From contig JAUWGW010000001.1 in NCBI GenBank assembly GCA_030606215.1, positions 90,905 to 154,904 on the forward strand: a DNA stretch of 64,000 nt, given 5' to 3'. The notes beneath the pieces were generated by a model. The model saw nothing but the letters and a program-made list of their open reading frames with translations. It made no database searches and was not told where the DNA came from. Numbering within the stretch: position 1 is the stretch's first letter; each line of letters starts with the position of its first letter. The DNA comes from a bacterium (GTDB lineage: Bacteria; NPL-UPA2; JAUVJM01). This document shows, piece by piece, positions 6,803 through 29,097 of this stretch. Both the position numbers and the translations under genes were made by a program.

Positions 6803-7429
6803 CTATTTTTCTGCAGGTTTAGCTGGTATTCCCACATATACTTTGTTATTCTCAGTATCTTTGGTGATGACAGCTCCTGCACCTACAAAGACGTTTTCAC
6901 CGACTATTCTATTTTCTAATACAGTAGCACCTGCTCCTACTTGACTGAAATCACCTACTGTCGCAAATCCTAACACTGTCGCGCTGGGACTAATATGACA
7001 ATACTTGCCTATATTGGAGTTATGTTCAACAACCGCATTGCTGTTAATGATTGTATAGTCACCAATCACAGCATGAGGGTTGACCACACAGTTTACACAC
7101 AATTGTGCTGTTTCGCTTATCCTGGCGTTGTCAGAGACATAACATTGTGGGTGCTTTGCTCCAATTAGGGTTAGGCCTTTTTCCGCACTCCTTTCTACCA
7201 ACATCCTTCTCACTCTCCCATCAGCGACAGCAACAATCCCTTTCTCAACACCCTTTTTGATTAAACCATCTACTTTCTCAAAATTGCCCAAAACTTTTAC
7301 TCCATCTATCGCGGTGTCATACAATTCTTTACTGTCATCTATAAATCCTGCTACTTCAATATCGTTAAGTCTTAGTATCTCTAAAATTATTCTTCCGTGT
7401 CCTCCTGCACCAATAATTATGCACTTCAT
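6803..7429 (-). CDS. NeuD/PglD-type sugar acyltransferase (left-handed beta helix)
   Basis: 208 residues. The N-terminal IIIGAGGHGRIILEIL is the PglD/NeuD nucleotide-sugar-binding half. The C-terminal half is a hexapeptide-repeat beta helix ending in GIPAKPAEK. The catalytic-base His is in VVEHNSNIG. The start at 7429 has AGGGG seven bases upstream. PglD and LegH acetylate the 4-amino group of UDP-4-amino sugars made by the partner aminotransferase, whereas NeuD O-acetylates sialic acid. The direct pairing with a DegT aminotransferase favours N-acetylation of a 4-amino sugar, the LegH-type step. It lies between NeuC and the aminotransferase in the operon. Confidence 0.88.
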   Translation of the reverse strand: MKCIIIGAGGHGRIILEILRLNDIEVAGFIDDSKELYDTAIDGVKVLGNFEKVDGLIKKGVEKGIVAVADGRVRRMLVERSAEKGLTLIGAKHPQCYVSDNARISETAQLCVNCVVNPHAVIGDYTIINSNAVVEHNSNIGKYCHISPSATVLGFATVGDFSQVGAGATVLENRIVGENVFVGAGAVITKDTENNKVYVGIPAKPAEK

Positions 7430-13219: not shown

Positions 13220-14852
13220 TTTTGTCCAACCAGCCATCGGGGCTGCTTATCATTCCCATATCGGGTGACTCTCCAGCCTTTAGAAAAACAGATTTTAACA
13301 GCACCCAGTAAGACATACGGTCAACCGATGAGTTGTCTGCATTAAGCCGGTACTCCAATCGCACCAATGACTCCGGACACGGATATCGGTCGTGCCATGT
13401 AACTGTGCATAAGTAGCCTTCTGGACGTCGCAAACCGTCAACGGACTCTTCGTCATAAATGAACACTGGCGATGCAGTTGTATTGCGAGCCAGATTTACC
13501 GGGGCGTTCAGATCCTCCGGGTCCATTCTTCTGTTTAACACCAAAACTTCTCTTGTGCTTGGAACCATCTTCAAGATGAACAGCGGCGGATGCACAAGAT
13601 TAGCAGGTATTATGCGAACCAGCTTCATGACCAATTCACGCTGTACCAGCGAGTCATAAATATACCATTTTGTAATTCGTAAGGAGGAAAGAGCAAGAAT
13701 CATCATTACTATGAAAAATACACTGATTCTAATTCGATAATGCCGAATGGCCATAATAAGTGCCGCGCCAATTATCGAAATACCCGGGATCGAAATATAT
13801 GCAAAACGACTATAAAAAGCATAAGACGATGGAACTCTACCAATTAGCGCGTAGGGTAACGCACCCAGTATCGCGAGCAGTGTTCCGAATAGAAGCTGCC
13901 AACCGACCAAGTTGTGCCCTTCCCGGCATTGTGCTTCTTTTCGCCTGCTCCTTCGACTGAAAAGCCACGCGATTAAAAGTCCCAAAACTCCCAAAGTAAT
14001 AATTCCAGGCCACGAAGCCAATTTAAGTGCGGAACTCAATGTGTAGCCGACACCACGCAGGTAATAGCGACCATGCCTCGCCAGATTCTGTAACAACGGT
14101 AGCATCGAAAATCTCAACTGATTATAACTTGCGAAGTCACCATAGGGTTTTAACCAGACAACCCTAGCGACAGTGAACGCAGCAAACATAATCCAAAACG
14201 GCACGCAACGTCGGATAGTGTTGCGGACCCCTTTCCAACCCCGATGCACAAATAGGACTCGTAATGGTTCTAAGAACATAAGGGTCTCAAAGAATAATGA
14301 AATAATAAAAGCTCCCACTGCAAGCAGATTCCCTCTCCTTCGACCAGAACGCAGGAGCCAGATCGAGAATAGATAAAAGAACATGAAGATGTCATAAATG
14401 GCATGGCTTATAGTTCCACGCGCATAGTAAAATGGAGAAAGCAAATATATTGCCGCAGCCCAGACAGAAATATCACGTGTCAAGAGCGGCCGCCGCAAGA
14501 TCCGGTAGAGAAGAATACCATTGACGAGATGACAGACTACGGCAAAGACTCTCGCCAGTATCCCAGCGTGCTCACCCCCAACCCCGTAGAACAGCGCAAG
14601 AGGGAACCAGTAGCCCGGATGCCGCATCTGCAACGTGTAATCAAATAGTCTATCCAGACCCTCGACCCTTGACACCCAGAACCAGGCCCAATCGTCCCAA
14701 TAGATGCCCGGAATCAACAGAAACGGGATATAGACTAAACCGCAGGCGATAAATAGTAGAAAGATAGCCCGCGGTGTCATAATAGCTGAATGTCGATTAT
14801 CCAATGCCAGAAATCGTTCGTGTCGAAATAATATCAGATGTGAGAATTTCAT
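13209..14852 (-). CDS. polytopic GT-C-like membrane protein, copy A
   Basis: 547 residues. It shares layout with copy B: N-terminal TM helix, YWDDWAWFWVSRVEGL loop, RHPGYWFPLALFYGVGG, several TM helices and a soluble C-terminal domain with PVFIYDEESVD. The start at MKFSHLILFRH (14852) forms an ATGA overlap with the stop of the ABC ATPase gene; longer frames would run into that gene. Most of the gene differs from copy B at scattered sites, but the last 169 bases are almost identical. Its place directly after Wzt suggests it acts on the polymer or its lipid carrier at the membrane. Confidence 0.7.
   Translation of the reverse strand: MKFSHLILFRHERFLALDNRHSAIMTPRAIFLLFIACGLVYIPFLLIPGIYWDDWAWFWVSRVEGLDRLFDYTLQMRHPGYWFPLALFYGVGGEHAGILARVFAVVCHLVNGILLYRILRRPLLTRDISVWAAAIYLLSPFYYARGTISHAIYDIFMFFYLFSIWLLRSGRRRGNLLAVGAFIISLFFETLMFLEPLRVLFVHRGWKGVRNTIRRCVPFWIMFAAFTVARVVWLKPYGDFASYNQLRFSMLPLLQNLARHGRYYLRGVGYTLSSALKLASWPGIITLGVLGLLIAWLFSRRSRRKEAQCREGHNLVGWQLLFGTLLAILGALPYALIGRVPSSYAFYSRFAYISIPGISIIGAALIMAIRHYRIRISVFFIVMMILALSSLRITKWYIYDSLVQRELVMKLVRIIPANLVHPPLFILKMVPSTREVLVLNRRMDPEDLNAPVNLARNTTASPVFIYDEESVDGLRRPEGYLCTVTWHDRYPCPESLVRLEYRLNADNSSVDRMSYWVLLKSVFLKAGESPDMGMISSPDGWLDKNDR
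13223..13391. repeat. 169-bp near-identical segment, copy in gene A
   Basis: Partner of 11596-11764. The abrupt edge of high identity inside two otherwise diverged paralogues is what recent gene conversion leaves behind. Confidence 0.85.
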
Positions 14853-16135
14853 CCGGCGAACTCCGTTTCCCATTTGAAGTCCGGTCTGATCACACCACTT
14901 CTTCCATCTGCCCAATGGGATCCTACACCCGCTGTCATATCCACGGAAAACCGAATCAGTTCAAAATCTCGGTAAAGTCGCTGTGCCCCCTTAATTCCTG
15001 TAATTACTCCCAGAACGAATGTTCCATCATTCAGTAAATTCTCAGGGATCGTGCACATAGCAACATAAATCCCCTGTTTCCGATTGTACCAGCCATGTTC
15101 TTCAGTTCTATCGCGATCAAAGGATGTACAGACCCATTGTCCCTCAGTTGTCTTCAAAGTCAGACCAACGCGTAGATTGGACACACTCTCGGTGAGCTGA
15201 TATCGAAACTCAATCTGAAACGGATATCTTGCTAGTACCCGTTCCGAAACCTTGCCTTTATGGTCTAAGATCCGTAGTGACAGCGGCACAAGTAAGCCCA
15301 GGTCGTTAAGGCGTTCCTCTTCCCATTGCCAGATGTACTCACCACTTTCCACTGAGTTACCTTTCAAATACGTTTTCACTACCTCTGCACTGGAGCCGCG
15401 CATCTGAAGACATCCCTGCTCCAGCAAAAGCGTCTGTGGACAGAGGGCCTGAATCACAGCCATATTGTGACTCACAAACAACACAGTTCGCCCCTCGCCC
15501 GTTACATCTTTCATTTTCCCCAGGCACTTCTTCTGAAACTCCACATCCCCCACTGCCAGTACCTCATCTACTAACAGTATTTCCGGTTCAAGGTGGGCGG
15601 CAACGGCAAAGGCAAGACGAACATGCATCCCTGCGCTATAGTGTTTCACAGGAGTATCAATAAACTTTTCTATTTCTGCAAATGATACTATCTCATTAAA
15701 CTTTTTATCTATCTCTCTTTTCTTCATTCCAAGAATAGCTCCATTAAGGTAAATATTCTCTCTTCCCGTAAGCTCGGGATGGAAACCGGTGCCTACTTCA
15801 AGGAGACTCCCTACTCTTCCACGAATTTCTGCATGTCCTTTCGTTGGCTCAGTTACTCTTGATAAAATCTTGAGTAGTGTTGTCTTCCCCGCTCCATTTC
15901 TTCCGATAATTCCAACTACCTCTCCTCTTTTGACTTCAAGGGAAACATCCTTCAATGCCCAGATGTATCCTTTTTCTCTTTTTGGAGCTGACTGGTTCTT
16001 GAGCTTCCCAAAGGGCGTGGTGAAAAGTTTAGTTATTTCATCCCTCAATGCTTTGTAAGGAACTTTCTCTCCTATCCTGTATCTTTTGCTTAAATTTTCT
16101 GCGCTGACGGCTACATCATTCATTTTCGCCCTCAT
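14849..16135 (-). CDS. wzt: O-antigen/capsule ABC exporter ATPase with Wzt C-terminal domain
   Basis: 428 residues. The ATPase core has Walker A GIIGRNGAGKTT, the signature HYSAGMHVRLAFA, Walker B EILLVDEVLAVGD and the H-loop VLFVSHN. Residues after about 270 form a separate beta-rich domain of Wzt type that binds the polymer end (PLSLRILDHKGK, FRYQLTESVSNLRVGLTLKT). The start at 16135 is set by GGGAGGGAG five bases upstream; the longer frame is less likely. The cognate permease lies immediately upstream. The presence of the C-terminal domain implies that export is coupled to a chain-terminating modification recognised by Wzt. Confidence 0.93.
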   Translation of the reverse strand: MRAKMNDVAVSAENLSKRYRIGEKVPYKALRDEITKLFTTPFGKLKNQSAPKREKGYIWALKDVSLEVKRGEVVGIIGRNGAGKTTLLKILSRVTEPTKGHAEIRGRVGSLLEVGTGFHPELTGRENIYLNGAILGMKKREIDKKFNEIVSFAEIEKFIDTPVKHYSAGMHVRLAFAVAAHLEPEILLVDEVLAVGDVEFQKKCLGKMKDVTGEGRTVLFVSHNMAVIQALCPQTLLLEQGCLQMRGSSAEVVKTYLKGNSVESGEYIWQWEEERLNDLGLLVPLSLRILDHKGKVSERVLARYPFQIEFRYQLTESVSNLRVGLTLKTTEGQWVCTSFDRDRTEEHGWYNRKQGIYVAMCTIPENLLNDGTFVLGVITGIKGAQRLYRDFELIRFSVDMTAGVGSHWADGRSGVIRPDFKWETEFAG

Positions 16136-16140
16136 TCTAA

Positions 16141-16162
16141 CTCCCTCCCACAAAGGGAGAGG
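16141..16162. repeat. CTCCCT/AGGGAG hairpin in the wzm-wzt gap
   Basis: CTCCCTCCCACAAAGGGAG with arms CTCCCT (16141-16146) and AGGGAG (16154-16159). It fills the gap between wzm and wzt, and its minus-strand GGGAGGGAG doubles as the wzt ribosome site. It resembles the C/G-rich hairpin at 2191-2210. Confidence 0.5.
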
Positions 16163-16171: not shown

Positions 16172-17065
16172 TCACACCACATCTGCAAAAGTTTGTTCCA
16201 TCTTTCGGAAATAGAGAATTCCACCGATAAGAATCAGAACTATTATCGAAATTGAAACAGCAAGAGATGGTCCCCAGATTGCTCCCTTGCCGAGCAATGC
16301 TTTCCTAAATCCTTCTATTACTCCTACCATTGGATTAAGCCCGTAAAGAGCTCTCCATCGCTCTGGAACTATAGTGATTGGGTACGCAATTGGAGTTGCG
16401 AAAAGCCAGAGCTGTATTAGAAATCCCACGGCATAACGGACATCCCTGTACTGAACATTCAATGCTGAGAGCCATAACCCTACCCCAAATGCAGTTATGA
16501 TTGACAGAAGCACAAACAGAGGTATTGTCCATATCGCCCCTGTGGGGTAAATATTATAGAAAAACATCATCCCGATAAGGACAGTAAAAGCAATGACAAA
16601 ATCTACCAATCCTCCAAGAACTGAGGATAAAGGTAAGATCAGGCGAGGAAAATATACTTTGGTAATTGTCTGTTGATGTTCCACAAGACTGTTTGTCGCA
16701 TGGGTGAGGCTATTTGCAAAATATGTCCAGGGAACAAGTGCACTATAGGCGAAAATCGGATAGGGCAACCCCTCCGAGGGAATTCTCGCAAATTTACCAA
16801 AGAATAGACTGAAGATCATCATCGTAAAAAAAGGTTGGATAATTGCCCATGCACCACCAATTGCAGTTTGCTTATACCGCACCTTTATGTCACGCCATGT
16901 GAGGAAGTAGACAAGTTCTCGGTATTCCCACAGTTCTTTGAAATTGAGAAATCGCCAACCATGAGTAGCCCGTATGCAGATTGTTGGAATTCCTCTCATG
17001 GATTCTGTAGGCAAGCTACAATTCCCTCCACGAACTCGCTTTTTTTTAGAATCAAGTAAACTCAC
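16172..17065 (-). CDS. wzm: ABC-2 type polysaccharide export permease
   Basis: About 297 residues. The conserved amphipathic start LNFKELWEYRELVYFLTWRD is followed by IKVRYKQT and six hydrophobic segments, including the IIQPFFTMMIFSLFFG helix and the terminal LILIGGILYFRKME helix. It pairs with the Wzt ATPase to move lipid-linked glycan across the inner membrane. The start is uncertain. A GTG at 17065 has GGAAAG four bases upstream, a TTG lies at 17077, and an ATG at 16999 matches the conserved region but has no ribosome site. It overlaps the preceding small membrane protein gene slightly. Confidence 0.9.
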   Translation of the reverse strand: MSLLDSKKKRVRGGNCSLPTESMRGIPTICIRATHGWRFLNFKELWEYRELVYFLTWRDIKVRYKQTAIGGAWAIIQPFFTMMIFSLFFGKFARIPSEGLPYPIFAYSALVPWTYFANSLTHATNSLVEHQQTITKVYFPRLILPLSSVLGGLVDFVIAFTVLIGMMFFYNIYPTGAIWTIPLFVLLSIITAFGVGLWLSALNVQYRDVRYAVGFLIQLWLFATPIAYPITIVPERWRALYGLNPMVGVIEGFRKALLGKGAIWGPSLAVSISIIVLILIGGILYFRKMEQTFADVV

Positions 17066-17576
17066 TTTTCTTTCCAAAAACTATCAGCTTCATTGTTACT
17101 ATAATTTTTGCTATCAACAACATCATGGGATTGCCAACATAATATCTGTCATTTTTGCATATTATCTGACCGTTATTAATTAACCTATTCATTCTTTTCT
17201 CAATAATCTCTTTAGCACTGTACCGTTCCAGAATTTCTGACATAGCGAGCCCTTCCTTAGAATCATATAATTCTCTTAATATTCTAATCCTCCGCGCTGT
17301 TTCCCCAAGATTTATAAAATGAAAATATCCGTATCCTAAAGCTGAATATGTAACAATATTAACAAAAGTAGAAGGCGCATTTCCTGGCAAAGATAAAGAA
17401 AGTTGCTTAAAACAATACAATTCAACAATTAACAAACTGAACATTCCAGCCGTGAAACCAACAAAAATAGACTTTAATACACTAAATCCAGTAATATAGC
17501 GACAACAGCAAACCTGACATACTACATTTACTCCAAAGCCGATGATAGGCGAAAATGCATGTAGACAATTCATCAT
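17052..17576 (-). CDS. small membrane protein with winged-helix-like tail, copy 2
   Basis: 174 residues, no recognised family. The N-terminal half has three hydrophobic stretches (IIGFGVNVVCQVCC, VLKSIFVGFTAGMFSLLIV, FVNIVTYSALGYGYFHF). The soluble half reads like a small winged-helix unit: a helix with SEILERYSAKEIIEKRMNRL, then a beta-type wing NNGQIICKNDRYYVG, then a final amphipathic helix LIAKIIVTMKLIVFG. Size and layout match the neighbour 17590-18114, including a shared TYSAL motif, so they are paralogues. Position before wzm suggests a regulatory or assembly role in export; this is inference. Confidence 0.6.
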   Translation of the reverse strand: MMNCLHAFSPIIGFGVNVVCQVCCCRYITGFSVLKSIFVGFTAGMFSLLIVELYCFKQLSLSLPGNAPSTFVNIVTYSALGYGYFHFINLGETARRIRILRELYDSKEGLAMSEILERYSAKEIIEKRMNRLINNGQIICKNDRYYVGNPMMLLIAKIIVTMKLIVFGKKSEFT

Positions 17577-17589
17577 ATCAACAATTTTG

Positions 17590-18114
17590 TCAACCGCCCC
17601 TCTGAACTTTTCCTATAAGTCTCCGATATGCCACAAATATACGTGCTATAAAAATACCTTTTGGCTTAAGCTTGTATGTTTCTCTATCCAAGCAAATCAT
17701 TCCTCCGGCAACGAGATCTCTTAGTCTCGGCAGTATCAGAACATCATTGCTCATTTCTTGCTCAAGCGTATTTTTGTCTAATCCATTAGAACCCGCTTTA
17801 GCAATATTCATCACCATTACAAGCGAAGGGCTATCTACCTCTAACGCAGAATAAGTAGCTATATAAGCCGTGGTTAAAGAGACAAAGAAAAAAGAAAGTT
17901 GGAAATATTCATAGGTGGTCGTGGGAGCAGGCAAGCCCAAAATTGTAATATAAGCTGAAGATTTCCACAAGATTAAAAAACCGATTATCATAGTGCCAAA
18001 GAATATCTGTACCAATGCTTTTGTTTGATTTTGAGGTAAACGGATTTTCCAAATAGTAAGATGGATAAAAAATGCAATAAAAATTAAGCCTGTGCCGTAG
18101 AATAATACGTTCAT
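17590..18114 (-). CDS. small membrane protein with winged-helix-like tail, copy 1
   Basis: 174 residues, no recognised family. Hydrophobic stretches occur at residues 1-20 (LFYGTGLIFIAFFIHLTIW), about 32-50 (LVQIFFGTMIIGFLILW) and about 70-90 (LSFFFVSLTTAYIATYSAL). The tail has a helix-helix-wing pattern: DKNTLEQEMSNDVLILPRL, RDLVAGGMICLDRETYKLK, then a closing helix IFIARIFVAYRRLIG. The hydrophobic N-terminus is a membrane anchor and not a cleavable signal. It forms a pair with 17052-17576 and lies between the B12-type radical SAM gene and wzm. Two similar anchored proteins could form a heterodimer. Confidence 0.6.
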   Translation of the reverse strand: MNVLFYGTGLIFIAFFIHLTIWKIRLPQNQTKALVQIFFGTMIIGFLILWKSSAYITILGLPAPTTTYEYFQLSFFFVSLTTAYIATYSALEVDSPSLVMVMNIAKAGSNGLDKNTLEQEMSNDVLILPRLRDLVAGGMICLDRETYKLKPKGIFIARIFVAYRRLIGKVQRGG

Positions 18115-18136
18115 AAAAGACTCAATGTTAAATTCT

Positions 18137-19633
18137 TTATCTCTTAAGAGGTCTCATTGCCTCATACAGAAATAGTTTAGTAAAAGAGCATAATATTCTA
18201 AATCCAAATTTTATCAAGTAAGACCACTCTTCTGGATTGAGATACCATCTTTCCGGCAGAGTTAGCCAACCGGCAGGGCCAATCCTCTCTTTCAAAATCT
18301 TAAATATACTCTGCGGGCGAAATGAATAAAGAAGATTATACTTCAATATATCGTGGCTAAGTTCTTTCTGGGAAGCTGTAAGAGGGACGTAAGCCAGGGG
18401 AGTTTCCTTAAAGGGTGATTCTACAAGCGTTCCGCACGCGTTGAGGTTCTCCCAATTATTGCCAGGATTTAACCTATTTTCTTCTTTTGCTATCTCGTAC
18501 AATTTTGTTCCGGGATAAGGCGTGGCGTTATTGAATCTCACGTAATCTAAAGCTAATTCCTTGGCAAGTCTATATGCCGCTTTTCTCTCTTCCTTGGTCT
18601 CTGTTGGAAGCCCCAATATAAATGTACCTGAGACCTGGAACCCAAATCTTTTTGCTAATTTGACTCCTTCTATTACTTGTTGTACAGTTTCTCTCTTATC
18701 AATTAGTTTCATTAATCTTTCCGATGCTGTCTCTATTCCAAAATGAATAGTTCTAAAGCCAGCCTCTCTAAGGGACTGTAAAACTTGTTCACTAACTGTG
18801 TCCCCCCTTGCCTGACAGTCAAAAATTGCCTTTTTGTGAAAATCTTTTTGTACCATCATCTCACAAAGATGCATAATTCTTTTCTTATTCATGAGAAAAG
18901 AATCATCTACAAATGTAATATAAGGACGGTTGTATTTATATATAAGCTCTTCTATATACTGAATAACAAGTTCAGAGGGGAAAAATCTGTATTTTCTTCC
19001 TGATATACTGCGCTGACTGCAGAACATGCAATTATAGGGACACCCTCGAGAACTAGCAATAAAACCTAATTCGTACCTATCTGAATACTGCTCAAATAAA
19101 TAGTAGGGAAACTTAGGCATCTTTTCTAAATCTGGCAATTGCGCTCGCTCATTATTAACAATAAACCCATCTTTGCGAAAAGAAATGCCTTTTATACTGC
19201 TATAATCTTCATTATTCTTTATCCTTTCATATAATAAATTTAGAATTTCCTCACCTTCACCGCAAACCACTATATCTATGTTTCTATCTCTTAGAACCTC
19301 CTCTGGCAAAACAGTTGGATGCATACCGCCCAATATAACTTTACCATCAGGATATTTTGTCTTTATAATGTGTGCTAACTCGTGAGCTCTGCCGATACCC
19401 GCTGTCAAACATGATAAGCCAAAAATGTAAGGTTGCTCGAGCCCTTTGACGTATTTGCCAAGCATCTCATCAGACACACACACCATTTCCTCATCCAATA
19501 TTCTGACTGTCTTACCATGCTCAATAAGATAACCTGCAAGATAACCTATGCCAATAGGAACGCTCACAGGAACATACCTTGAAAATCCACCTAATTTTTG
19601 CTTACGATTATAATCGGGATTAATCAATATCAT
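18137..19633 (-). CDS. B12-binding-type radical SAM protein
   Basis: 498 residues. The N-terminal region has the cobalamin-domain layout (PVSVPIGIGYLAGYLIEHG, KVILGGMHPTVLPEEVL, DIVVCGEGE) but no obvious DxHxxG, so B12 may not be bound through the usual His. The radical SAM core follows with RGCPYNCMFCSQRS, FVDDSFLMN, FGIETASERLM and GTFILGLPTETKEE. Members modify unactivated carbons or carry out methyl transfer and rearrangements. It is the last of four radical SAM genes in the polysaccharide operon. The substrate is unknown. Confidence 0.85.
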   Translation of the reverse strand: MILINPDYNRKQKLGGFSRYVPVSVPIGIGYLAGYLIEHGKTVRILDEEMVCVSDEMLGKYVKGLEQPYIFGLSCLTAGIGRAHELAHIIKTKYPDGKVILGGMHPTVLPEEVLRDRNIDIVVCGEGEEILNLLYERIKNNEDYSSIKGISFRKDGFIVNNERAQLPDLEKMPKFPYYLFEQYSDRYELGFIASSRGCPYNCMFCSQRSISGRKYRFFPSELVIQYIEELIYKYNRPYITFVDDSFLMNKKRIMHLCEMMVQKDFHKKAIFDCQARGDTVSEQVLQSLREAGFRTIHFGIETASERLMKLIDKRETVQQVIEGVKLAKRFGFQVSGTFILGLPTETKEERKAAYRLAKELALDYVRFNNATPYPGTKLYEIAKEENRLNPGNNWENLNACGTLVESPFKETPLAYVPLTASQKELSHDILKYNLLYSFRPQSIFKILKERIGPAGWLTLPERWYLNPEEWSYLIKFGFRILCSFTKLFLYEAMRPLKR

Positions 19634-19656
19634 TTATCTGTGATGTTGGCACAAAA

Positions 19657-20763
19657 TCATATAAAATTTATATGCAGTGGGGGGGCACCTTTCGGTTCTT
19701 CAAGAATGGCATTTCCGTGTTTCAAATCCCAGAGGAACTCATTTACCTTATGTTGAAGACACAGGGTGCCACACATCGTTTTGGCATCAAACTTATTCGA
19801 AGCGATAAAATTCATAACCTCCCAATAACGCTCACTCTGCCAGACCTCCTTGAAAGATGTATCCACTATATTGCCAATATGAAATCTTTTATACTTTTTA
19901 TTGAACAGCATACCGCAAGGGGCAACAAGTCCTGAGCCAGAAAATTGCGTAATAAAAGGTGGGCCGAAACACCGGGAATACTTACGCTTCCCACTACTTA
20001 AAATCTTAGACCATTTCACCTTCATTAAATATCCGTTCTCAGCGTAAGTCTCTGCTCTTTTTAAAACATCAACTAACTTGAAGTACTCAGAGTAATCTAT
20101 TCCTAAACTTCCCTCCTCATCATCACTGCAATGTTTAATAATCGCATAGTCAACTCCCAATTCCTTGCCAAGTTTAGCAAAAGGAATAATCTGATCAGAA
20201 AATTCAGGCATTAAAACCATCTGTATACCTATGGTGACAGAAAGCTCTTTCTCTTCCTTTATTTTTACACATGTCTTTATTGTATTATATACTTTATAAA
20301 AATATTCTTTTTTACAACCCATTATTTGACTATAGCGAGAAGGTTCTGCGGCGGAGATATTGAACCTGAGATAAGTTAAACAAGGCAAGAGTTCTTCCAA
20401 CTTTTCATCTTTCACTAAATAACCGTTCGTTCCTAATGCCATATCTAAACCATTTGCCCTGCCTCTTAAAACAGCATCATATAGATGGGGAGAACAGGTG
20501 CTTTCTCCGTCACTTACAAAACTTATAGCTTTTACCCCAATCTCGGTGGCATCGTCGAGAAACCTGAAAATCACATCTTTTGTCATCCTCTTCTCATCGT
20601 TAGCCTGCAGTTGACCATAACAATAAATACATCTATAAGTGCAGCGTCTGGTCAAAGCACAATCAATAGTGACGGGAGCTATTCTTTCTCCCCTTAACCA
20701 AGCTTCCACCCTTTCCTTATGCCATGCCAGTTTGTGCCCATCAAGAATCAATTCAGCAGCCAA
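19657..20763 (-). CDS. radical SAM/SPASM-type protein with PPLHINFI tail
   Basis: 368 residues. The cluster motif is CTYRCIYC (CxxxCxxC), followed by FVSDGESTCSPHLYD. C-terminal cysteines (CFGPPF, APCGMLF, MCGTLCLQHK) fit a SPASM or twitch domain with an extra iron-sulfur cluster. The extreme C-terminus LWDLKHGN...PPLHINFI recurs in 23593-24657, so these two are members of one family. The N-terminal sequence LAWHKERVEAWLRGE also has its counterpart there. It lies between the B12-type radical SAM gene and the GT2 gene. The substrate cannot be assigned. Confidence 0.82.
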   Translation of the reverse strand: MAAELILDGHKLAWHKERVEAWLRGERIAPVTIDCALTRRCTYRCIYCYGQLQANDEKRMTKDVIFRFLDDATEIGVKAISFVSDGESTCSPHLYDAVLRGRANGLDMALGTNGYLVKDEKLEELLPCLTYLRFNISAAEPSRYSQIMGCKKEYFYKVYNTIKTCVKIKEEKELSVTIGIQMVLMPEFSDQIIPFAKLGKELGVDYAIIKHCSDDEEGSLGIDYSEYFKLVDVLKRAETYAENGYLMKVKWSKILSSGKRKYSRCFGPPFITQFSGSGLVAPCGMLFNKKYKRFHIGNIVDTSFKEVWQSERYWEVMNFIASNKFDAKTMCGTLCLQHKVNEFLWDLKHGNAILEEPKGAPPLHINFI

Positions 20764-20786
20764 AGTAATTTCCCTCTCTCAGGCAT

Positions 20787-21569
20787 TTAATCATCCCTAT
20801 TCCGTCTGATTGCTGTCAAGGAATCTTCTGTGAATCGCACCCTAATTTTTGTATCTTTCTCAATATGAATGTTGTTTACTAACCGAAAATAGCCCTTTGT
20901 GACCTGTAGCAAAGAAGGAAATGAAACCGCTTTGGAAATCCCCTCTTTTCTTAAACCAATCCTGTAAGGAACCTCAGCGAAAAGATAGCCTTCTTTTATT
21001 GTTCTTATTAGAATATCAGTTTGAAAAAAGAAACCGTTACTTCTATAGTTCAGCTCTTTCAAAATGGATTTTCGGTAGAGGACCGTACCGTTGGTGTAGT
21101 TAAGGTTAACGAAAAACGTGCTATTAATAATGAAACGATAAAAAAATGAGAGAGCATTCCTGAAGAGAGACCTCGCTCCTTTGTTAAAGATAAAAGGGAT
21201 AACAATATCCACGTGATCGAGCAACCTGTAATACCGGAGAATTTCCCGTGGATTATTCTCATTATCTCCAGGGATCATAACAATTATGTTCCCGTTAGCA
21301 TTATCAACCCCGTCCCAAAATGACGCACCCACACCTTGAGGAACTTGATGAGATATCATTCTAACACGATTATCTTTTTTTATTAGAGTATCCACCACAC
21401 CTTTTGTATTATCTGCACTTCCATCGTCAACAACGATTATTTCACCCTTGATGTTGAAATCCTCAAGAGCTTTTAATGTGTTATCAATAACAACCGGAAT
21501 ATTTTTCCCCTCGTTAAGAGCTGGCATGATAACAGTGATATTGAGTCTGTCTTTATTCTCAAGGTTCAT
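20787..21569 (-). CDS. glycosyltransferase family 2 (DPM1-like)
   Basis: 260 residues. ITVIMPALNEGKNIPVVID, EIIVVDDGSADNT and MIPGDNENNPREIL give the GT-A nucleotide-sugar-binding pattern of dolichol/polyprenyl-phosphate mannosyltransferase-like enzymes. There is no C-terminal membrane pair, so it is the short soluble type. Such enzymes transfer a sugar from NDP-sugar to polyprenyl phosphate, which GT-C enzymes then use; two GT-C-like proteins lie downstream in the same operon. It overlaps the E1 beta gene by four bases (ATGA). Confidence 0.87.
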   Translation of the reverse strand: MNLENKDRLNITVIMPALNEGKNIPVVIDNTLKALEDFNIKGEIIVVDDGSADNTKGVVDTLIKKDNRVRMISHQVPQGVGASFWDGVDNANGNIIVMIPGDNENNPREILRYYRLLDHVDIVIPFIFNKGARSLFRNALSFFYRFIINSTFFVNLNYTNGTVLYRKSILKELNYRSNGFFFQTDILIRTIKEGYLFAEVPYRIGLRKEGISKAVSFPSLLQVTKGYFRLVNNIHIEKDTKIRVRFTEDSLTAIRRNRDD

Positions 21570-22618
21570 TTTAGCACTCTCTTCACTTCCGTAATGATTT
21601 GCTCCTCCCCAGAGTAATACGCCTTCTCAAGGATTGGACTCGCCGGCGTGGGGACATCAGGCAGTGCTACTCTTAAAACAGAGGTCTCCAAATGCTCAAA
21701 AGCATTTTCCATCAGAAAGGAAGAGACCTCAGAACTTATACCGCAAAACTTATACCCAAAATCTAAAATCACAGCTCTTCCTGTTTTTTTAACAGAATTC
21801 AAAATCAAATCATAGTCTAAGGGTTTTATTGTACGCAAATCTATTAATTCTATATCAATCCCTTCTTTTTCCAACACTCTCGCGGCCGCCATCGCCAAGA
21901 TCACCATAAAAGAATCAGCAATCAATGTTAAATCTTTTCCCTCCCTTCTTAAGCTCCCCTTTCCTAAGGGTATAAAATAGGGCTCAGGAGGTACTATATC
22001 TTTATGGTCATAGAGCCAGCGGTGCTCAACAAAGACTACAGGAGACTCATTATGAATACTTGACAGAAGAAGACCTTTCGCATCATATGCAGTAGAAGGC
22101 ATGACAACTTTTAATCCCGGGATATGGGTAAATAAACCTTGAAGAGGTTGAGAATGTTGAGCAGCTGAACCCCACCCACCTCCTATTATTGTCCTGACTA
22201 CCATGGGAACAGACACTTTTCCTCCAAACATGTATTTCCACTTAGCCGCATGATTCATTAGCTGATCCATTGAAAGAAGCATAAAGTCCGTTCTCATCTG
22301 GACCAAAATTGGCCTTAGCCCTGCCAAGGAAGCTCCAATAGCAATTCCCGTTAAGGCGTTTTCACATATAGGTGTATCAAAAACTCTCTCCTGACCAAAT
22401 TCTTTATGAAGGTTGAGCGTTGTTCCAAAAACTCCTCCGGGGTCATCCACCCCTTCACCGAATATGAAAACCCTTGTGTCTCTTCCCAAAGCTGAAGATA
22501 GAGCTTCTCTGATAGCTTCTCTGTAACTGATTACCCGCTCTCCCTTAAATTCATCCTTTTGAGTAAGAACTCTTATCCCGGATAAATCTACAGGCACTCT
22601 ATCCCACGACATAGTCAA
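21566..22618 (-). CDS. TPP-dependent alpha-ketoacid dehydrogenase E1 beta-like subunit
   Basis: 350 residues of the transketolase-like E1 beta family. ISYREAIREALSSAL, VFIFGEGVDDPGG (the glutamate that activates TPP), TPICENALTGIAIGA and GGGWGSAAQHSQ are diagnostic. The C-terminal domain has LIADSFMVILAM and DLRTIKPLD. It overlaps the alpha-subunit gene by four bases. No E2 lipoyl transferase or E3 dehydrogenase gene is present, so it may carry out a lipoate-independent carboligation or decarboxylation in sugar synthesis. That role is inferred from absence and context. Confidence 0.9.
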   Translation of the reverse strand: MTMSWDRVPVDLSGIRVLTQKDEFKGERVISYREAIREALSSALGRDTRVFIFGEGVDDPGGVFGTTLNLHKEFGQERVFDTPICENALTGIAIGASLAGLRPILVQMRTDFMLLSMDQLMNHAAKWKYMFGGKVSVPMVVRTIIGGGWGSAAQHSQPLQGLFTHIPGLKVVMPSTAYDAKGLLLSSIHNESPVVFVEHRWLYDHKDIVPPEPYFIPLGKGSLRREGKDLTLIADSFMVILAMAAARVLEKEGIDIELIDLRTIKPLDYDLILNSVKKTGRAVILDFGYKFCGISSEVSSFLMENAFEHLETSVLRVALPDVPTPASPILEKAYYSGEEQIITEVKRVLK

Positions 22619-23589
22619 TAGACATCCTTATATAGGTCTTCTTCTTCAGGGTAACGACTGGTTAGGGCAAAATCTAACGCTTCTTGAACCTCTTTCTCTA
22701 TCTTTTTTCCCACTTCCTGAAGGTCTTTCTTCTCCAGCAGGTTGTTTCTTAGTACATGCTCTTCAAACTTTTTCAAAGGGCATTTATTAACCCACTCCGC
22801 AACCTCTTTCTCATCCCTGAACCCTTTTTCAATATCTGTTTCAGGACCAACATGTGTCTTCCACCTATATGTTCTCGCCTCAATTAATGAGGGACCTGAA
22901 CCATGCTTTGCTCTATCTATGAATTCTTTAGCTATTTTATAGATTTCCAACACATCATTCCCATCAACACAAACCCCTGGCATGAGGAAGAAATCTGCTA
23001 TTTTGTAAATATCAGGGTTCACCTGGCGGTTTTCTTGAGGAGAATTTGTGGCATAGAAATTATTCTCACACACAAATACTATAGGCAATTTCTTTAAAGA
23101 GGCGAAATTAAGACTTTCATAGAATACACCTTCATCCACAGCTCCATCTCCGAAAAATACAACGACCACTCTCTCATCCCTATTCATTTTAGAGGCTAAT
23201 GCTGTTCCCACGGCTATAGGTATTCCCCCACCTACAATCGATGATGTTCCCATTATAGAACGTTCCGGGAAAACCATGTGCATTGATCCACCTTTACCTT
23301 TGGAACATCCAGTTATTTTTCCATAGAGTTCTGCAAACATAGGCTTCAGATCCACACCCTTAGCAATTAAATGCCCGTGGTTTCTATGATTGCTAAAAAC
23401 ATAGTCTTCCTTCTTTAAATTAGCACAGAACCCAACGGCAATTGCTTCCTGGCCAATGTAGAGGTGAACAGGACAACGCATTTCCTGCTGAGGATAAAGT
23501 TCTATTATTTTTTCTTCAAATCTCCTTATTTTCACTAAATAATAATACATCTTCTTAAGAATTCCAGTATCAATTACGAGATTTTTCAT
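22615..23589 (-). CDS. TPP-dependent dehydrogenase E1 alpha-like subunit
   Basis: 324 residues. YIGQEAIAVGFCANL, NHRNHGHLIAKG, GKGGSMHMV and the TPP-binding GDGAVDEGVFYESLNFA...ENN segment identify the E1 alpha subunit. SPQENR and ARTYRWKTHVGPE are family-specific loops. It is one codon-overlap upstream of its beta partner, and a radical SAM gene precedes it by a few bases. The pair forms an alpha2beta2 enzyme by analogy with acetoin and branched-chain dehydrogenases. The usual E1 alpha phospho-loop is not needed in bacteria and gives no clue to the substrate. Confidence 0.9.
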   Translation of the reverse strand: MKNLVIDTGILKKMYYYLVKIRRFEEKIIELYPQQEMRCPVHLYIGQEAIAVGFCANLKKEDYVFSNHRNHGHLIAKGVDLKPMFAELYGKITGCSKGKGGSMHMVFPERSIMGTSSIVGGGIPIAVGTALASKMNRDERVVVVFFGDGAVDEGVFYESLNFASLKKLPIVFVCENNFYATNSPQENRQVNPDIYKIADFFLMPGVCVDGNDVLEIYKIAKEFIDRAKHGSGPSLIEARTYRWKTHVGPETDIEKGFRDEKEVAEWVNKCPLKKFEEHVLRNNLLEKKDLQEVGKKIEKEVQEALDFALTSRYPEEEDLYKDVY

Positions 23590-23592
23590 AAT

Positions 23593-24657
23593 TTAGATAA
23601 AATTTACGTGAAGTGGAGGATTTTTAAGATTCCAGAGATATCTATTTATCTCATCAAGACGACACATTTCTCGACAATTCTCTATGTTCCACTCGCTTTC
23701 CATCATCTTCATAATTTCCCTTCTTTTCTCCCCTTCCCATATTTTAGGAAAAGAATTTTGATATATGTTCCCGTAGCAGAAACGCTCATCACCGAGAAAA
23801 GCACTACAGGCAAAAAGGTCACCCTTAGATGTAAGATAAGCCCAAAAGGAAAGACCGAAGCACTTCTTATAAGGTCTCCGCTCTCCAATTTTTAGCATAG
23901 TGTTCTTCCGAAATATTATCTTAAAATTTTCTCTTTCGCGATTTCTGAGTTCTTCTTTAAGGAATAAAAGTCTTTCATAATCGAGCTGAGGTTTCAAACG
24001 ATTTATACTTGAAGGATGCTGAGAATAGGGTTTTACAATTAAATAATCAGTTCCTATACTACTTAAGATTTCTGCCAGCATGGGAACTTCCTTATAATTC
24101 TCATTCAAAAGAAGCAGTTGAACACCAACCGTGCAGAGATAACCCTTTTCCTTCTTTAGCTGTATTGCTTCTTTGATATTTCCAATGACCTTATCAAAAT
24201 CTTTAGGATTCGTCCTGTGAATAAAAGAGTAAGTTTTGCGTGTACCTGCATCAAGGCTTATTCTCAACCAGCTAAGGTGGGGAAGTATCTCATTTAAAAG
24301 TCTTTTGGATAATAATACACCGTTAGTAGTAATCGCTACATCCAGATTGCAACTTTTCGCATATATTACTAATTCTGAAGTATCTTTATGAAGCAAAGGT
24401 TCTCCTTCTCCAGCGAACATTACACTTTTTACTCCTCTCACCGAAATTTCTTCCAAAAAACTCTTAAGCACTTCTGTGTCTAAGTGGGTAGGATTATATT
24501 TCAAATAGTCTAAGGCGCAGAATATGCAACGGTGATTACAACCACCATATGGAGAAATTTCCATATAAAGCGGGAAAATATCCTTTCCATCAAGCCAATC
24601 TGCAACTCTCCTGGGATGGTAGATTAGCTTATGACTATCTATACGATATGTGTCCAT
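23593..24657 (-). CDS. radical SAM/SPASM-type protein with PPLHVNFI tail
   Basis: 354 residues. The cluster motif is CNHRCIFCALDYL, followed by MFAGEGEPLLH and LRISLDAGTRKT. C-terminal cysteines CFGLSF, FACSAFLGD and CREMCRLDEI fit an auxiliary-cluster domain. The C-terminus YLWNLKNPPLHVNFI matches that of 19657-20763, as do the N-terminal HPRRVADWLDGK and the mid-region VGVQLLLLNENY. The ATG at 24657 follows an in-frame TTG that is probably not used. The gene precedes E1 alpha by a few bases, so the two are transcribed together. Confidence 0.82.
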   Translation of the reverse strand: MDTYRIDSHKLIYHPRRVADWLDGKDIFPLYMEISPYGGCNHRCIFCALDYLKYNPTHLDTEVLKSFLEEISVRGVKSVMFAGEGEPLLHKDTSELVIYAKSCNLDVAITTNGVLLSKRLLNEILPHLSWLRISLDAGTRKTYSFIHRTNPKDFDKVIGNIKEAIQLKKEKGYLCTVGVQLLLLNENYKEVPMLAEILSSIGTDYLIVKPYSQHPSSINRLKPQLDYERLLFLKEELRNRERENFKIIFRKNTMLKIGERRPYKKCFGLSFWAYLTSKGDLFACSAFLGDERFCYGNIYQNSFPKIWEGEKRREIMKMMESEWNIENCREMCRLDEINRYLWNLKNPPLHVNFI

Positions 24658-24699
24658 CAATTTTACTGCTGTGTAAGAGCTCCCCTTGGCCTGTTATTA

Positions 24700-25650
24700 T
24701 CACTTAAGCAGCCCTTCATGGAATGCCCGGTTAATTTCGCTAAAAACATCTTTGGGATAAATATGTCTCATACACGGGTTGTTTATTTTACACTCGGGCA
24801 AACAGCATGGAAAATCACTGCACTCCACTTTTCCCGGAGTAATGATTTTTCCCCGGTCATAAAGACATACCTCTCTAAAGTTCATGGGGCCGAACAACGC
24901 TACAACATACTTTTTCATCGCTATTGCGAGATGCAGGCCAAACGAATCATTTGTGACGATAAGACGACATGAATGAATCCAATCAAAATATTCTTCCATA
25001 TTGTCGAGTCCCTGCTGCCATGAAATGCAATATTTGTTTCCGATGATTTTTTCGAGCTTTTTCCAGTAATCCATCGGCCAGGCTTTTGAAGACCACTTAT
25101 TGCCCACTTGGTAGTTGAATCCGATATCATGTGTTACAGCTGATTTCGGTTCGTGACCGAGGATGTACTCTTCATCCCTCCACTGCGCATTTACTATTTT
25201 GTAAAGTCCTTCCTGCCAAAACGAAGCGTATTTTTTCTTCTTCTCTATGTCCAGACATACAGCTAATGCTTCCTGAGTTCCATCATAAGCCTCTGCACAT
25301 CCAGTTCTTTCATCAAACCTGAAACCATAACGTCGCCAGGCATTGATTGAATCAGTCAGGGCACATAATCCGGGAACCTTCTCTAGATTAATAACAGTGT
25401 CGAAATATTCTGCCTGCAGTTGTAATACAGAAGAAAGGTTGTAAATCATAACTCTGTCAATATATTCGTTACCTTTTAGAATGGGATAAGCTCTCTCATC
25501 TACAAGCCACGTAACATGGTCATTTTTATAAAGATGTAACAAAACTGTTGTGCGGAGCACATCTCCGTAACTTGTCGTGTTACTTATTTCTGGATCCAGG
25601 GTTTCCGAGTAGCCTACTTTAATTATCAATACTTTTGATTTCTTGCTCAT
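24700..25650 (-). CDS. glycosyltransferase family 9 (heptosyltransferase-like)
   Basis: 316 residues. KVLIIKVGYSETL, SYGDVLRTTVLLHLY, VTWLVDERAYPIL and the C-terminal RLIVTNDSFGLHLAIAMKK with VALFGPMN follow the ADP-heptose:LPS heptosyltransferase pattern. A Cys-rich C-terminal stretch (CSDFPCCLPECKINNPC) is common in this family. The start at 25650 is supported by GGAGG seven bases upstream and overlaps the radical SAM gene by 32 bases. It probably adds a heptose or related sugar to a core or lipid-linked glycan. Confidence 0.85.
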   Translation of the reverse strand: MSKKSKVLIIKVGYSETLDPEISNTTSYGDVLRTTVLLHLYKNDHVTWLVDERAYPILKGNEYIDRVMIYNLSSVLQLQAEYFDTVINLEKVPGLCALTDSINAWRRYGFRFDERTGCAEAYDGTQEALAVCLDIEKKKKYASFWQEGLYKIVNAQWRDEEYILGHEPKSAVTHDIGFNYQVGNKWSSKAWPMDYWKKLEKIIGNKYCISWQQGLDNMEEYFDWIHSCRLIVTNDSFGLHLAIAMKKYVVALFGPMNFREVCLYDRGKIITPGKVECSDFPCCLPECKINNPCMRHIYPKDVFSEINRAFHEGLLK

Positions 25651-26527
25651 CGTGTCCGCCTCCTGGAAATTTTATGTCTACTGATGTATATCCATAAATT
25701 TGATACCTGTTTGTTTTAATCTTTACATCACATTCACTGCAAGTGCCGTAATTATCACAACTATAATATTTATCCTTAATGACCAAACCCTCATCCAAAA
25801 CATTCCCTAATTTGAGAGATTTTCTTCTAAAATATAAATCGGAATGACACCGGTATATGTCACCATCCGGTGCAATAGGAACCACTGTGTCCTTGCACAT
25901 TACGCTTATCCCTTTCTTTTTACCAATACAGGCGTCCTTATACCGAAAAGTACCATATAATTTACCGTTCCAGCAACCTAAAAATTCTTTCTGCCTCACT
26001 TCAACACCAAATCTTCTGGCAAATTGTTTAACTTCAATAAACTCTTCCTTATAAGAAGGATGCTCTAAGCAGTACAAACCTATGCTTAGTACAGTTTGTA
26101 ACTCGGCAATTCTTCTTATTAGTTCTTTGTAATCATGTTGCCCTTTATGATAAGAAACCCTTATGGTAGGGTAAGGAGCTTTTCTTTTGTTCCATTCTAA
26201 TGTTCTCAATTTAACAAAGTGCTCTCTCGTCAGGAAAGATGGCAGTGCTGTTAGTATATCTATCTTGTGCCTGATTCCTTCTAATACCTCCCAAATCCCG
26301 GCATAAAGAAACGGTTCTCCCCCCTGCAAGGTGATAGGAACATCCTCTGGAAGCACAAACCTGTTCAATGATTCAATCCACTGCCCTGGAGACAAGTATT
26401 TTATCTGTTCATACTGAAAGTTAGAATTGTGGTGAGCAGTTATACAGTAATCACATTTCAAATGACACTTGTTGGTGAGATAGACACCTATATAATCGTA
26501 ATGATCAGGGATAATTACCTTCTTCAT
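25619..26527 (-). CDS. radical SAM protein
   Basis: 302 residues. IGVYLTNKCHLKCDYCITAHH holds the CxxxCxxC cluster motif, followed by ITLQGGEPFLYAGIW. Further cysteines (DACIGKKKG, SVMCKDTV, YRCHSD, SCDNYGTCSECDV) suggest an auxiliary cluster. It is first in the run of four radical SAM genes and lacks the PPLH tail of 19657 and 23593. There is no clear ribosome site. Two small hairpins lie just upstream of its ATG (26541-26570). The substrate is unknown. Confidence 0.8.
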   Translation of the reverse strand: MKKVIIPDHYDYIGVYLTNKCHLKCDYCITAHHNSNFQYEQIKYLSPGQWIESLNRFVLPEDVPITLQGGEPFLYAGIWEVLEGIRHKIDILTALPSFLTREHFVKLRTLEWNKRKAPYPTIRVSYHKGQHDYKELIRRIAELQTVLSIGLYCLEHPSYKEEFIEVKQFARRFGVEVRQKEFLGCWNGKLYGTFRYKDACIGKKKGISVMCKDTVVPIAPDGDIYRCHSDLYFRRKSLKLGNVLDEGLVIKDKYYSCDNYGTCSECDVKIKTNRYQIYGYTSVDIKFPGGGHDEQEIKSIDN

Positions 26528-26603: not shown

Positions 26604-27104
26604 TCACTCCAACAAATCTGTTGGTAGAAGTTTGAGTAATTTTTCCAGTCTTTCTGACATTTTTCTTACGGTTTTTATTCTCTCCATATAGGTTCTGGCA
26701 AGTTTTTTGTTTTCATCATTAAATTTCTTCTCGGAATCCTTCAACATCTTTTCAACCTGCCCAACTGCTCCATTTGCTTCGGAAATCCTTCTCTCAAGCC
26801 CCACTTTCAAGCGGTTAGAGGCAATTTTCCACACATCTCTATCAGCAATATAGTGGTCGCGCCTGTTTCCTTTCACCCAGATTTTTTTTGCAGCTCCCCA
26901 CCCCTCCAGCGCGCGGATATTCACACTTGCACTTGCCTTACTTATTTTGAGTTTTCCAACCATCTCGTTAAGGGAAATTGGTTCGGGACTCAGGTAAAGG
27001 AGGGCATAGAGCTGACCTGCTATTTCGTTCAGGCCCATGCTCTTGGAAAGCCGCCCTGCTGTTTCTATAAAATAATCATGTGCCTTTTCAAGTTCAGAGT
27101 TCAT
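26604..27104 (-). CDS. GbsR/MarR-family transcriptional regulator
   Basis: 166 residues. IAGQLYALLYLSPEPISL leads into a winged-helix motif (LNEMVGKLKISKASASVNIR, ALEGWGAAKKIWVKGNRRDH) typical of GbsR-type MarR relatives. The C-terminal 70 residues are charged and helical and likely form the dimer coiled coil. It stands alone in its control region with a consensus promoter upstream and is the first gene of the long run into the polysaccharide locus. It is therefore a good candidate regulator of that locus and of itself. The effector is unknown. Confidence 0.88.
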   Translation of the reverse strand: MNSELEKAHDYFIETAGRLSKSMGLNEIAGQLYALLYLSPEPISLNEMVGKLKISKASASVNIRALEGWGAAKKIWVKGNRRDHYIADRDVWKIASNRLKVGLERRISEANGAVGQVEKMLKDSEKKFNDENKKLARTYMERIKTVRKMSERLEKLLKLLPTDLLE

Positions 27105-27381: not shown

Positions 27382-29079
27382 TTAGAATAACCCAACTGTC
27401 TTACCATTTTCATCAATGTCAACCGCAACAAAGGCTGGAACTGATGGAAGCCCCGGCATTGTCCTCATTTCTCCAAGAAGAGGATAGAGAAAACCTGCGC
27501 CAACTGAAGCTCTTATATCACGCACCGGGACACGGTAATTTTTGGGGACTCCTTTAAGGTTGGGGTCGTGTGAAAGCGAAAGGTGCGTCTTTGCCATATT
27601 TATGCATAATTTGTCATAACCAAGTTCTGTATACAGTTTAATCCTCTTCTCTGCAATCGGAGTATAATCAACACCATCAGCGCGATAAACTTTAGTTGCA
27701 ATTGTCTCAATCTTTTCCTTGATTGAAAGTTCATCAGGATAGAGGAGATGAAAATTGTTTGGCTCATCACAGGCTTTCACAATTTTTTCTGCCGCTTCAA
27801 TACAACCTTCCCCGCCTTTTGCCCACGGGTCTATGGCGCATGCGGCATATGCTCCGTTTTCAAGAGCATATTTTACGACAGAATCTATTTCCTTATCCCT
27901 GTCAGCAGTGAAACGGTTGACTGTGACCACAACAGGAATTCCAAAAGAAAGCATATTTTCAAGGTGAACTTTGAGATTCTCACATCCTCTCTCAAGCGCT
28001 GGCATATTCTCTTTCTCGGCAATCTTCCTGTCATATTTCTGTCCGGGTTTTAAAGTAAATGCTCCTCCATGCATTTTCAGAGCGCGAATACTACAGGTTA
28101 TGACTACAGCATCCAGTTTAATACCGCTCTGGCGGCAGACAACATCTATCAGTTTTTCAGCTCCACAATCAGCCCCGAACCCGCTTTCAGTAACTACATA
28201 ATCGGCGACTTTTAAAGCGACAAGGTTAGCGAGAACTGAGTTATTTCCATGAGCAACATTCGCAAACGGAAAACCATGGTCAATCACAGGAGTGTTTTCA
28301 AGACTCTGAACAAGATTCGGTTTTATGGAATCCTTCATAAGGACAGTCATTGTCCCCGCAACTTTAAGGTCTTCGGCAGTTACTGGTTTCCCCTCATATG
28401 TGAAACCGCATACCATTCTTCCAAGTCTTTTCCTCAAATCAAAAAGTCCTGTTGTAAGGGCATGGACGGCGGCTGTTTCTGTTGCTACAGTTATATCGTA
28501 TCCAGTCTCTCTCGGATAACCGTTTGCCTTACCTCCAAGCCCGACAACTATATGTCTCAGTGCCCTGTCACTGACATCAACACATCTCCTAAGTGTTATG
28601 TTTAGCAAGTCTATATTTAATTTGTTTCCATGAAGGATAGAAGCATCCAGCGCGGCATTCAGCAGATTATGGGCAGTCTCAACCGCATGAATATCCCCTG
28701 TGAAGTGGAGGTTGATATTCTCCATTGGAACCACCTGCGAATAACCTCCACCACACGCCCCTCCTTTTATTCCGAAGGTAGGACCTTTTGAAGGTTCCCT
28801 TATTGTATTACAAACATTCTTCCCAATTTTTGCTAAAGCTTGACCAATCCCAAGATTTGTAACAGTCTTCCCTTCCCCCAATGGAGTTGGAGTAATTGCG
28901 GTTACAGTGATAAATTTTCCATTGGGCTTGTCTTTAAATCTTTCAAGAATCTTGAGGTCAATTTTAGCCATATATTTCCCGTATGGCTCAAGCTCATCTT
29001 CCTGCACTCCGAGTTTGTCTGCAATCTGAGTGATTGGTTTTAATTTAGCCGCCTGAGCAATTTCCAAGTCACTAAGCAT
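27382..29079 (-). CDS. fhs: formate--tetrahydrofolate ligase
   Basis: 565 residues, normal family length. Diagnostic segments are FITVTAITPTPLGEGKTVTN (ATP loop), REPSKGPTFGIKGGACGGGY, NLHFTGDIHAV and VVTESGFGADCGAEK. It makes 10-formyl-THF from formate and ATP, or the reverse to gain ATP. AAGGAGG lies eight bases before the ATG. It is the last gene of the unit with the ADP-forming acyl-CoA synthetase, which hints at acetate- or formate-linked energy metabolism, though fhs alone does not prove a Wood-Ljungdahl pathway. Confidence 0.97.
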   Translation of the reverse strand: MLSDLEIAQAAKLKPITQIADKLGVQEDELEPYGKYMAKIDLKILERFKDKPNGKFITVTAITPTPLGEGKTVTNLGIGQALAKIGKNVCNTIREPSKGPTFGIKGGACGGGYSQVVPMENINLHFTGDIHAVETAHNLLNAALDASILHGNKLNIDLLNITLRRCVDVSDRALRHIVVGLGGKANGYPRETGYDITVATETAAVHALTTGLFDLRKRLGRMVCGFTYEGKPVTAEDLKVAGTMTVLMKDSIKPNLVQSLENTPVIDHGFPFANVAHGNNSVLANLVALKVADYVVTESGFGADCGAEKLIDVVCRQSGIKLDAVVITCSIRALKMHGGAFTLKPGQKYDRKIAEKENMPALERGCENLKVHLENMLSFGIPVVVTVNRFTADRDKEIDSVVKYALENGAYAACAIDPWAKGGEGCIEAAEKIVKACDEPNNFHLLYPDELSIKEKIETIATKVYRADGVDYTPIAEKRIKLYTELGYDKLCINMAKTHLSLSHDPNLKGVPKNYRVPVRDIRASVGAGFLYPLLGEMRTMPGLPSVPAFVAVDIDENGKTVGLF

Positions 29080-29097
29080 TTATCCATCCTCCTTCTT

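Follow-up and report, generated by a model that had tools for sequence, protein, structure and literature searches.

A mobile cassette of radical S-adenosylmethionine enzymes and an E2-free thiamine pyrophosphate enzyme with a possible role in making an unusual surface sugar

What do radical enzymes and a thiamine pyrophosphate (TPP) enzyme make together in a polysaccharide operon? The question is raised by the window, a stretch of 64,000 nucleotides from a bacterium of the NPL-UPA2 lineage (contig JAUWGW010000001.1, positions 90,905 to 154,904), in which four radical S-adenosylmethionine (SAM) enzymes, a pair of E1 alpha and E1 beta subunits and glycosyltransferases of the families GT2 and GT9 form a tight minus-strand operon that continues into an ABC polysaccharide exporter. 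Our answer, held with a little less than even confidence, is that the window carries a mobile cassette building an unusual sugar for a surface glycan by means of two of the radical enzymes, rSAM A and rSAM B, and a TPP-dependent carboligation. The pieces of the cassette are of known kinds and the idea of sugar branching has precedent. No close homologues of the cassette proteins with an established role turned up, and so none with the known but unrelated roles about which the first-pass annotation of this DNA had been wary.

Is the set more than a chance assembly? With rSAM B as the query, 335 relatives were detected among 84,980 genomes; the top 80 are 68–85% identical to the window protein and derive from Omnitrophota, Nitrospirota, Myxococcota and other former Deltaproteobacteria, Planctomycetota, Elusimicrobiota, Auribacterota, Patescibacteria, Chloroflexota and Schekmanbacteria, and among archaea from Pace- and Nanoarchaeota (DPANN). 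rSAM A, rSAM B and the TPP enzyme are found together, often with rSAM C, in eight or more bacterial phyla, in DPANN archaea and in dozens of phage contigs; among the genome loci with enough flank (n = 47), 40 have the TPP enzyme and 34 have rSAM A in the vicinity of rSAM B. Since unrelated genomes and viruses share these genes and their order, the cassette is no chance assembly: rSAM A, rSAM B and the TPP enzyme form a conserved unit, surrounded throughout by sugar genes (GT2, GT9, NT-PfkB, SIS, SDR, DegT, NeuB). The neighbours, whose conservation the first-pass annotation had proposed as a check, are thus kept across phyla, and the set of four radical SAM enzymes with an E1 pair that it had singled out can be narrowed to a core of rSAM A, B and C with a TPP enzyme, the cobalamin-binding radical SAM enzyme (B12-rSAM) being an accessory and E1 being replaceable by a split transketolase. 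In the tree the phyla are intermixed (22 label changes, the minimum possible being 10), and 30 of 285 Omnitrophota genomes carry a relative (about 24 at 60% identity or more), so the occurrence is patchy, as for a mobile island. The cassette is real, widespread and mobile, although genome bins can hold foreign contigs and single occurrences are no proof. In the window genome's own phylum the search reached nine genomes, with no further carrier among them.

The accessory standing of the B12-rSAM bears on another reading, in which this BchE/HpnJ/HpnR-like protein would be the key enzyme and the operon would serve modification of a membrane lipid or polyprenyl carrier. The B12-rSAM does match lipid and tetrapyrrole families and the GT2 is of the polyprenyl-phosphate type, but at an identity of at least 38% the B12-rSAM occurs at 8 of the 47 genome loci and at no viral locus, and hence is not part of the core; we consider such a role quite improbable. 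The GT2 itself is kept in 33 of the 47 genome loci and in 0 of 47 viral loci. Of the first-pass suggestion that radical and TPP chemistry would build a branched sugar or a lipid carrier, the carboligation to a branched sugar has published precedent, while the lipid carrier found no direct support.

What kind of enzyme is the E1 pair? By sequence it belongs to the E1 family of 2-oxo acid dehydrogenases, with the highest scores against pyruvate dehydrogenase (PDH) models, and the translated window E1 beta, read against the human sequence, retains the catalytic Glu and His of PDH beta. These scores, and the presence of one E2 in the window genome (C9:44885), would suit a displaced PDH pair that sits in a sugar operon and is served by an E2 elsewhere in the genome. 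That E2, however, has its own E1 pair alongside (E1-E1-E2 on contig 9): of the four E1 alpha genes of the genome it follows just this one, and the other E1s group apart from the cassette E1 with a support of 100/100. No E2 homologue was found at any of 163 loci, a point that the first-pass annotation had proposed to check; moreover, E2 is missing from seven of the nine whole genomes carrying the cassette, partly incomplete ones, and five of the seven have the cassette E1 alpha as their sole E1 alpha, an agreement that is hard to explain other than by an E2-independent E1 pair. Together with the conserved neighbourhood this largely refutes a displaced PDH, which we regard as highly improbable, and the cassette TPP enzyme is not part of a 2-oxo acid dehydrogenase complex. 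Orphan E1 pairs are unusually numerous in the window genome: two more without an adjacent E2 lie at C11:62354 and C6:5258 (L203 and L204). In 18 of the 47 genome loci a split transketolase replaces E1, and both are present in just 3 of these loci and in 0 of 47 viral ones. The two are mutually exclusive, and therefore the slot needs a TPP enzyme for acyl or ketol transfer, not a dehydrogenase.

Precedents for such a transfer exist. The PDH-like pairs AviB1/AviB2 (avilamycin) and Pau11/Pau12 (paulomycin) have been proposed to make two-carbon sugar branches, and YerE (yersiniose), a TPP-dependent flavoprotein, carries out the two-carbon branching of an O-antigen sugar (PMC4425429, PMC4753412). 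The cassette shares with the antibiotic clusters an E1-type pair among sugar genes, its own being without E2. It differs from them in that the pair is exchangeable with a split transketolase and lies in surface-glycan operons and phages, and in that it is tied to radical SAM enzymes, whereas the helper named for avilamycin is the non-heme iron enzyme AviO2; YerE, TPP-dependent as well, is a single flavoprotein with no radical SAM partner. By analogy with AviB1/AviB2 and Pau11/Pau12, the best reading is that the cassette TPP enzyme adds a two-carbon unit. Because of these same pairs, the TPP-branching half of what the first-pass annotation took for an undescribed pathway is less new than claimed. 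For the combination of radical SAM, TPP and heptose genes no description was found in the open-access literature, nor was the joint use of radical SAM enzymes and a stand-alone TPP enzyme, or its occurrence among phage structural genes.

Or could the TPP enzyme instead be a dedicated transketolase that supplies a ketose similar to sedoheptulose 7-phosphate? In this main rival explanation a GmhA-like SIS isomerase and a nucleotidyltransferase-PfkB fusion (NT-PfkB; Pfam CTP_transf_like and PfkB) would turn this ketose into an activated heptose, and the radical SAM enzymes would do no more than decorate it. The two proteins form one of two accessory kits of the cassette (kit I) and resemble GmhA and HldE of the ADP/GDP-heptose pathway, with the differences that in the fusion the nucleotidyltransferase comes first and that the kit is joined to radical SAM and TPP enzymes; the PHROG label for the viral NT-PfkB is heptose kinase/adenylyltransferase. 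The SIS and/or the HldE-like NT-PfkB are found in 25 of the 47 genome loci and 31 of 39 distinct viral loci, which, together with the 18 genome loci with a split transketolase and the fact that GT9 is the heptosyltransferase family, favors a supply of heptose. However, the other kit, rSAM C, accompanied by GT9 in 7 of 8 genome loci, excludes the first: SIS/NT-PfkB is present in 0/8 genome loci with rSAM C vs 25/39 without it (p 0.001) and in 0/5 vs 31/34 of the distinct viral loci (p 1e-4), p-values that serve as guides, since related loci are not independent. The TPP enzyme is kept at all C-type loci without the isomerase and kinase (8/8 genome and 5/5 viral), as it is in the window, and this weakens the case for heptose supply. 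The window operon has neither protein and its genome gives only weak nucleotidyltransferase and PfkB matches elsewhere; moreover, ketose transfer is not a known activity of E1 alpha/beta pairs. We therefore rate heptose supply as unlikely, though well above the other alternatives. The window has the C/GT9 kit, and its closest layout is that of an Omnitrophota locus (L039), the E1 alpha of which is the sister of the window E1 alpha (100/100). As a separate observation, a family of about 321 aa with a weak ArgZ-like C-terminal Rossmann match is encoded upstream of the nucleotidyltransferase at L038:2759-3727 and at 13 other genome loci.

The cassette is also carried by phages: rSAM B is encoded on 58 IMG/VR contigs and rSAM A on about two dozen (at least 33% identity), and E1 or split transketolase is found near rSAM B in 36, and rSAM A in 17, of the 47 viral loci. 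In L097 the portal protein is followed, in this order, by E1 alpha, E1 beta, rSAM B, NT-PfkB, SDR, DegT, SIS and the major head protein; a major head protein follows the cassette in L143, and major tail and tape-measure genes follow it in L091. In 22 viral loci and no cellular one, homologues of virion genes (three separate sets) are located within about 2.5–9.5 kb of the cassette, although several of the 22 come from the same contig (some represented twice) or from close relatives; given this proximity, a chance join of contigs was considered and rejected. Among GenBank phage records there was no close relative, the top match reaching 26% over most of the query length, and hence the phage evidence rests on the IMG/VR contigs. 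The viral rSAM B proteins are 43–64% identical to that of the window, and a quick tree gives moderate support to a separate phage lineage (38/39 in one group, SH-aLRT 84). As the viral copies have no GT2, no membrane pair (m1 and m2, below) and no close B12-rSAM, the phage acceptor is probably something other than a polyprenyl carrier, and the position among late genes suggests that the phage-borne cassette may decorate the virion. In the viral contig L134 (9845-15933) rSAM B precedes a homologue of the gene at 10463-11569 of the window, a CMP-sugar transferase and NeuB, neighbours that match those in the nonulosonic acid block of the window. In another viral contig (L004) sulfotransferase-like P-loop open reading frames, recognized by eye (HFPRTGGT motif and kin), are interleaved with the cassette at 2548-3189, 6154-6942 and 8972-10458.

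What, then, could rSAM A and rSAM B contribute? In the window they are paralogues (31% identical) from sister families, both ending in HxNFI, and the C-terminal HxNF[IV] is kept in most family members. Both have the CxxxCxxC motif with invariant Cys 41/45/48 and match SPASM, and four further Cys are conserved in the C-terminal part (265, 283, 331 and 335 in B; 267, 285, 329 and 333 in A), which are predicted to ligate a single auxiliary cluster as in BtrN. AlphaFold models of both (predicted local distance difference test score 95), built from alignments without the plasmid rows (one plasmid sequence in each), have DesII as the top structural match (Foldseek 6.5e-17 for B; Z 24.7 and 26.7), with BlsE close behind (Z 24.3 and 25.1). 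In the sequence profile search BlsE and DesII are also nearest to rSAM A, while the C-terminal part of rSAM B aligns with that of BtrN. DesII and BlsE, 14–21% identical, come from antibiotic pathways and are not known to have a TPP partner. BtrN, which catalyzes a two-electron alcohol oxidation, has a truncated SPASM domain with a single four-Cys auxiliary cluster (PMC9012708); its substrate is an aminocyclitol, and rSAM A and B differ from it by the added conserved HxNFI tail. The predicted fold and the likeness to BtrN fit, without proving, a sugar-oxidising role for A and B.

We infer the following pathway, in which substrate and product are deduced from the enzymes. rSAM A and/or B would abstract hydrogen from a nucleotide- or lipid-linked sugar, plausibly of the heptose type, converting it by oxidation or deoxygenation into a keto or deoxy-keto sugar, to the carbonyl of which the E2-free TPP enzyme (E1 alpha/beta in the window, split transketolase elsewhere) would add an acyl anion of two carbons donated by pyruvate or a ketose, yielding a branched or chain-extended sugar. 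After possible tailoring by rSAM C and the B12-rSAM, the sugar would be transferred by the GT9 and the polyprenyl-phosphate-type GT2, and in the window genome the polymer would be exported by Wzm/Wzt; phages would use the same chemistry among their late structural genes. Several points weigh against this pathway. The order of the steps is a guess, and a split transketolase in the E1 slot suits a ketose-type transfer equally well as a pyruvate-type one. On their native substrates DesII and BlsE deaminate or decarboxylate rather than simply oxidise to keto sugars. Finally, the peptide enzymes SkfB and SuiB tie with DesII and BlsE as matches to the models, their Z scores differing by about one unit or slightly more, so the fold by itself cannot say 'sugar'. 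Could the SPASM enzymes then mature a ribosomally synthesized peptide or a protein, with the sugar genes as mere neighbours? Peptides are the substrates of most SPASM enzymes, but the gaps in the window operon (at most 76 bases) leave no space for a precursor gene, and none of the window proteins A, B and C has an RRE/PqqD peptide-recognition domain, which makes a peptide role very unlikely; the recurring neighbours, too, are sugar genes, not peptide genes.

In its broader form, the sugar-building proposal would see in rSAM A, rSAM B and the E2-free TPP enzyme a new anaerobic route to a new class of branched or chain-extended sugars in bacterial and archaeal surface glycans and in phage virions, in which phages would synthesize an exotic sugar of their own while their particles assemble, as a coat for the virion or as a mimic of the host surface; this we offer as a tentative and rather doubtful extension. 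If true, it would add radical chemistry to the known routes to branched sugars. The conservation of rSAM B across phyla and the location of the cassette between phage portal and head genes point to a glycan chemistry that is under strong selection where phage and host surface meet and is missing from current annotation libraries; for it the cassette supplies concrete enzymes and a cultured host (Azospirillum oryzae). Strain KACC 14407 of this species encodes an rSAM B at 58% identity together with an E1 pair, SIS, NT-PfkB and two DegT proteins.

The apparent operon spans 27104 to 14849 on the minus strand, in the order helix-turn-helix (HTH) regulator, rSAM C, GT9, rSAM A, E1 alpha, E1 beta, GT2, rSAM B, B12-rSAM, m2, m1, Wzm, Wzt (Table 1). 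From rSAM C through Wzt the intergenic gaps are -32 to +39 bases, hence the reading as a single operon. The first-pass annotation had the four radical SAM genes (18137, 19657, 23593, 25619), both glycosyltransferases and the E1 pair in their places and rightly called them tightly spaced; its limits, 17052-26527, hold for these genes and fall short of the operon, which also takes in the HTH gene and promoter match upstream and Wzm/Wzt downstream.

Table 1. Elements of the operon in the window, in the direction of transcription
Feature	Position	Strand	Remarks
Sigma-70-type promoter match, TTGACA-17-TATAAT, 12/12	27157-27129	-	Ahead of first operon gene; consensus match only
Small HTH (MarR-like) regulator, first gene of operon	26604..27104	-	Weak HTH_11/MarR_2 matches, below cut-off
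rSAM C, radical SAM with SPASM-like C-terminus	25619..26527	-	Homologues at 30-45% in phages and genomes
GT9-family glycosyltransferase	24700..25650	-	Homologue at 49% in phage contig L003/L004
rSAM A, twitch/SPASM radical SAM, tail PPLHVNFI	23593..24660	-	Predicted auxiliary-cluster Cys 267, 285, 329, 333
E1 alpha-type TPP enzyme subunit, without E2	22615..23589	-	Sequence family
E1 beta-type TPP enzyme subunit	21566..22618	-	Sequence family
GT2 glycosyltransferase, polyprenyl-phosphate sugar synthase-like	20787..21569	-	Weak ArnC/AglJ/PpgS-type matches
rSAM B, twitch/SPASM radical SAM, tail PPLHINFI	19657..20763	-	Predicted auxiliary-cluster Cys 265, 283, 331, 335
Cobalamin-binding radical SAM (B12-binding and radical SAM domains), BchE/HpnJ-like, accessory	18137..19633	-	
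m2, small membrane protein, no Pfam family, travels with m1	17590..18114	-	
m1, small membrane protein, no Pfam family	17052..17576	-	
Wzm-type ABC-2 permease (polysaccharide export), outside conserved cassette	16172..17077	-	No homologue counted at other loci
Wzt-type ABC ATPase	14849..16153	-	

The Rfam search gave no match. m2 and m1 are adjacent as a pair at 22 loci; each is about 174 aa long, with a possible cytoplasmic winged-helix-like end (by eye), and the pair (17052-18114) is absent from phages. Past Wzt follow genes of the nonulosonic acid type (NeuB, CMP-transferase, NeuC-like epimerase, DegT, hexapeptide transferase), and at 11579-14915 two adjoining proteins of about 550–570 aa, each having some eight hydrophobic segments but matching no Pfam family, are possible membrane glycosyltransferases. 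Just upstream of the operon (27382-32297) are genes of one-carbon and acetate metabolism, encoding a formate-tetrahydrofolate ligase, an AAA_26/DRTGG protein and an ADP-forming acyl-CoA synthetase.

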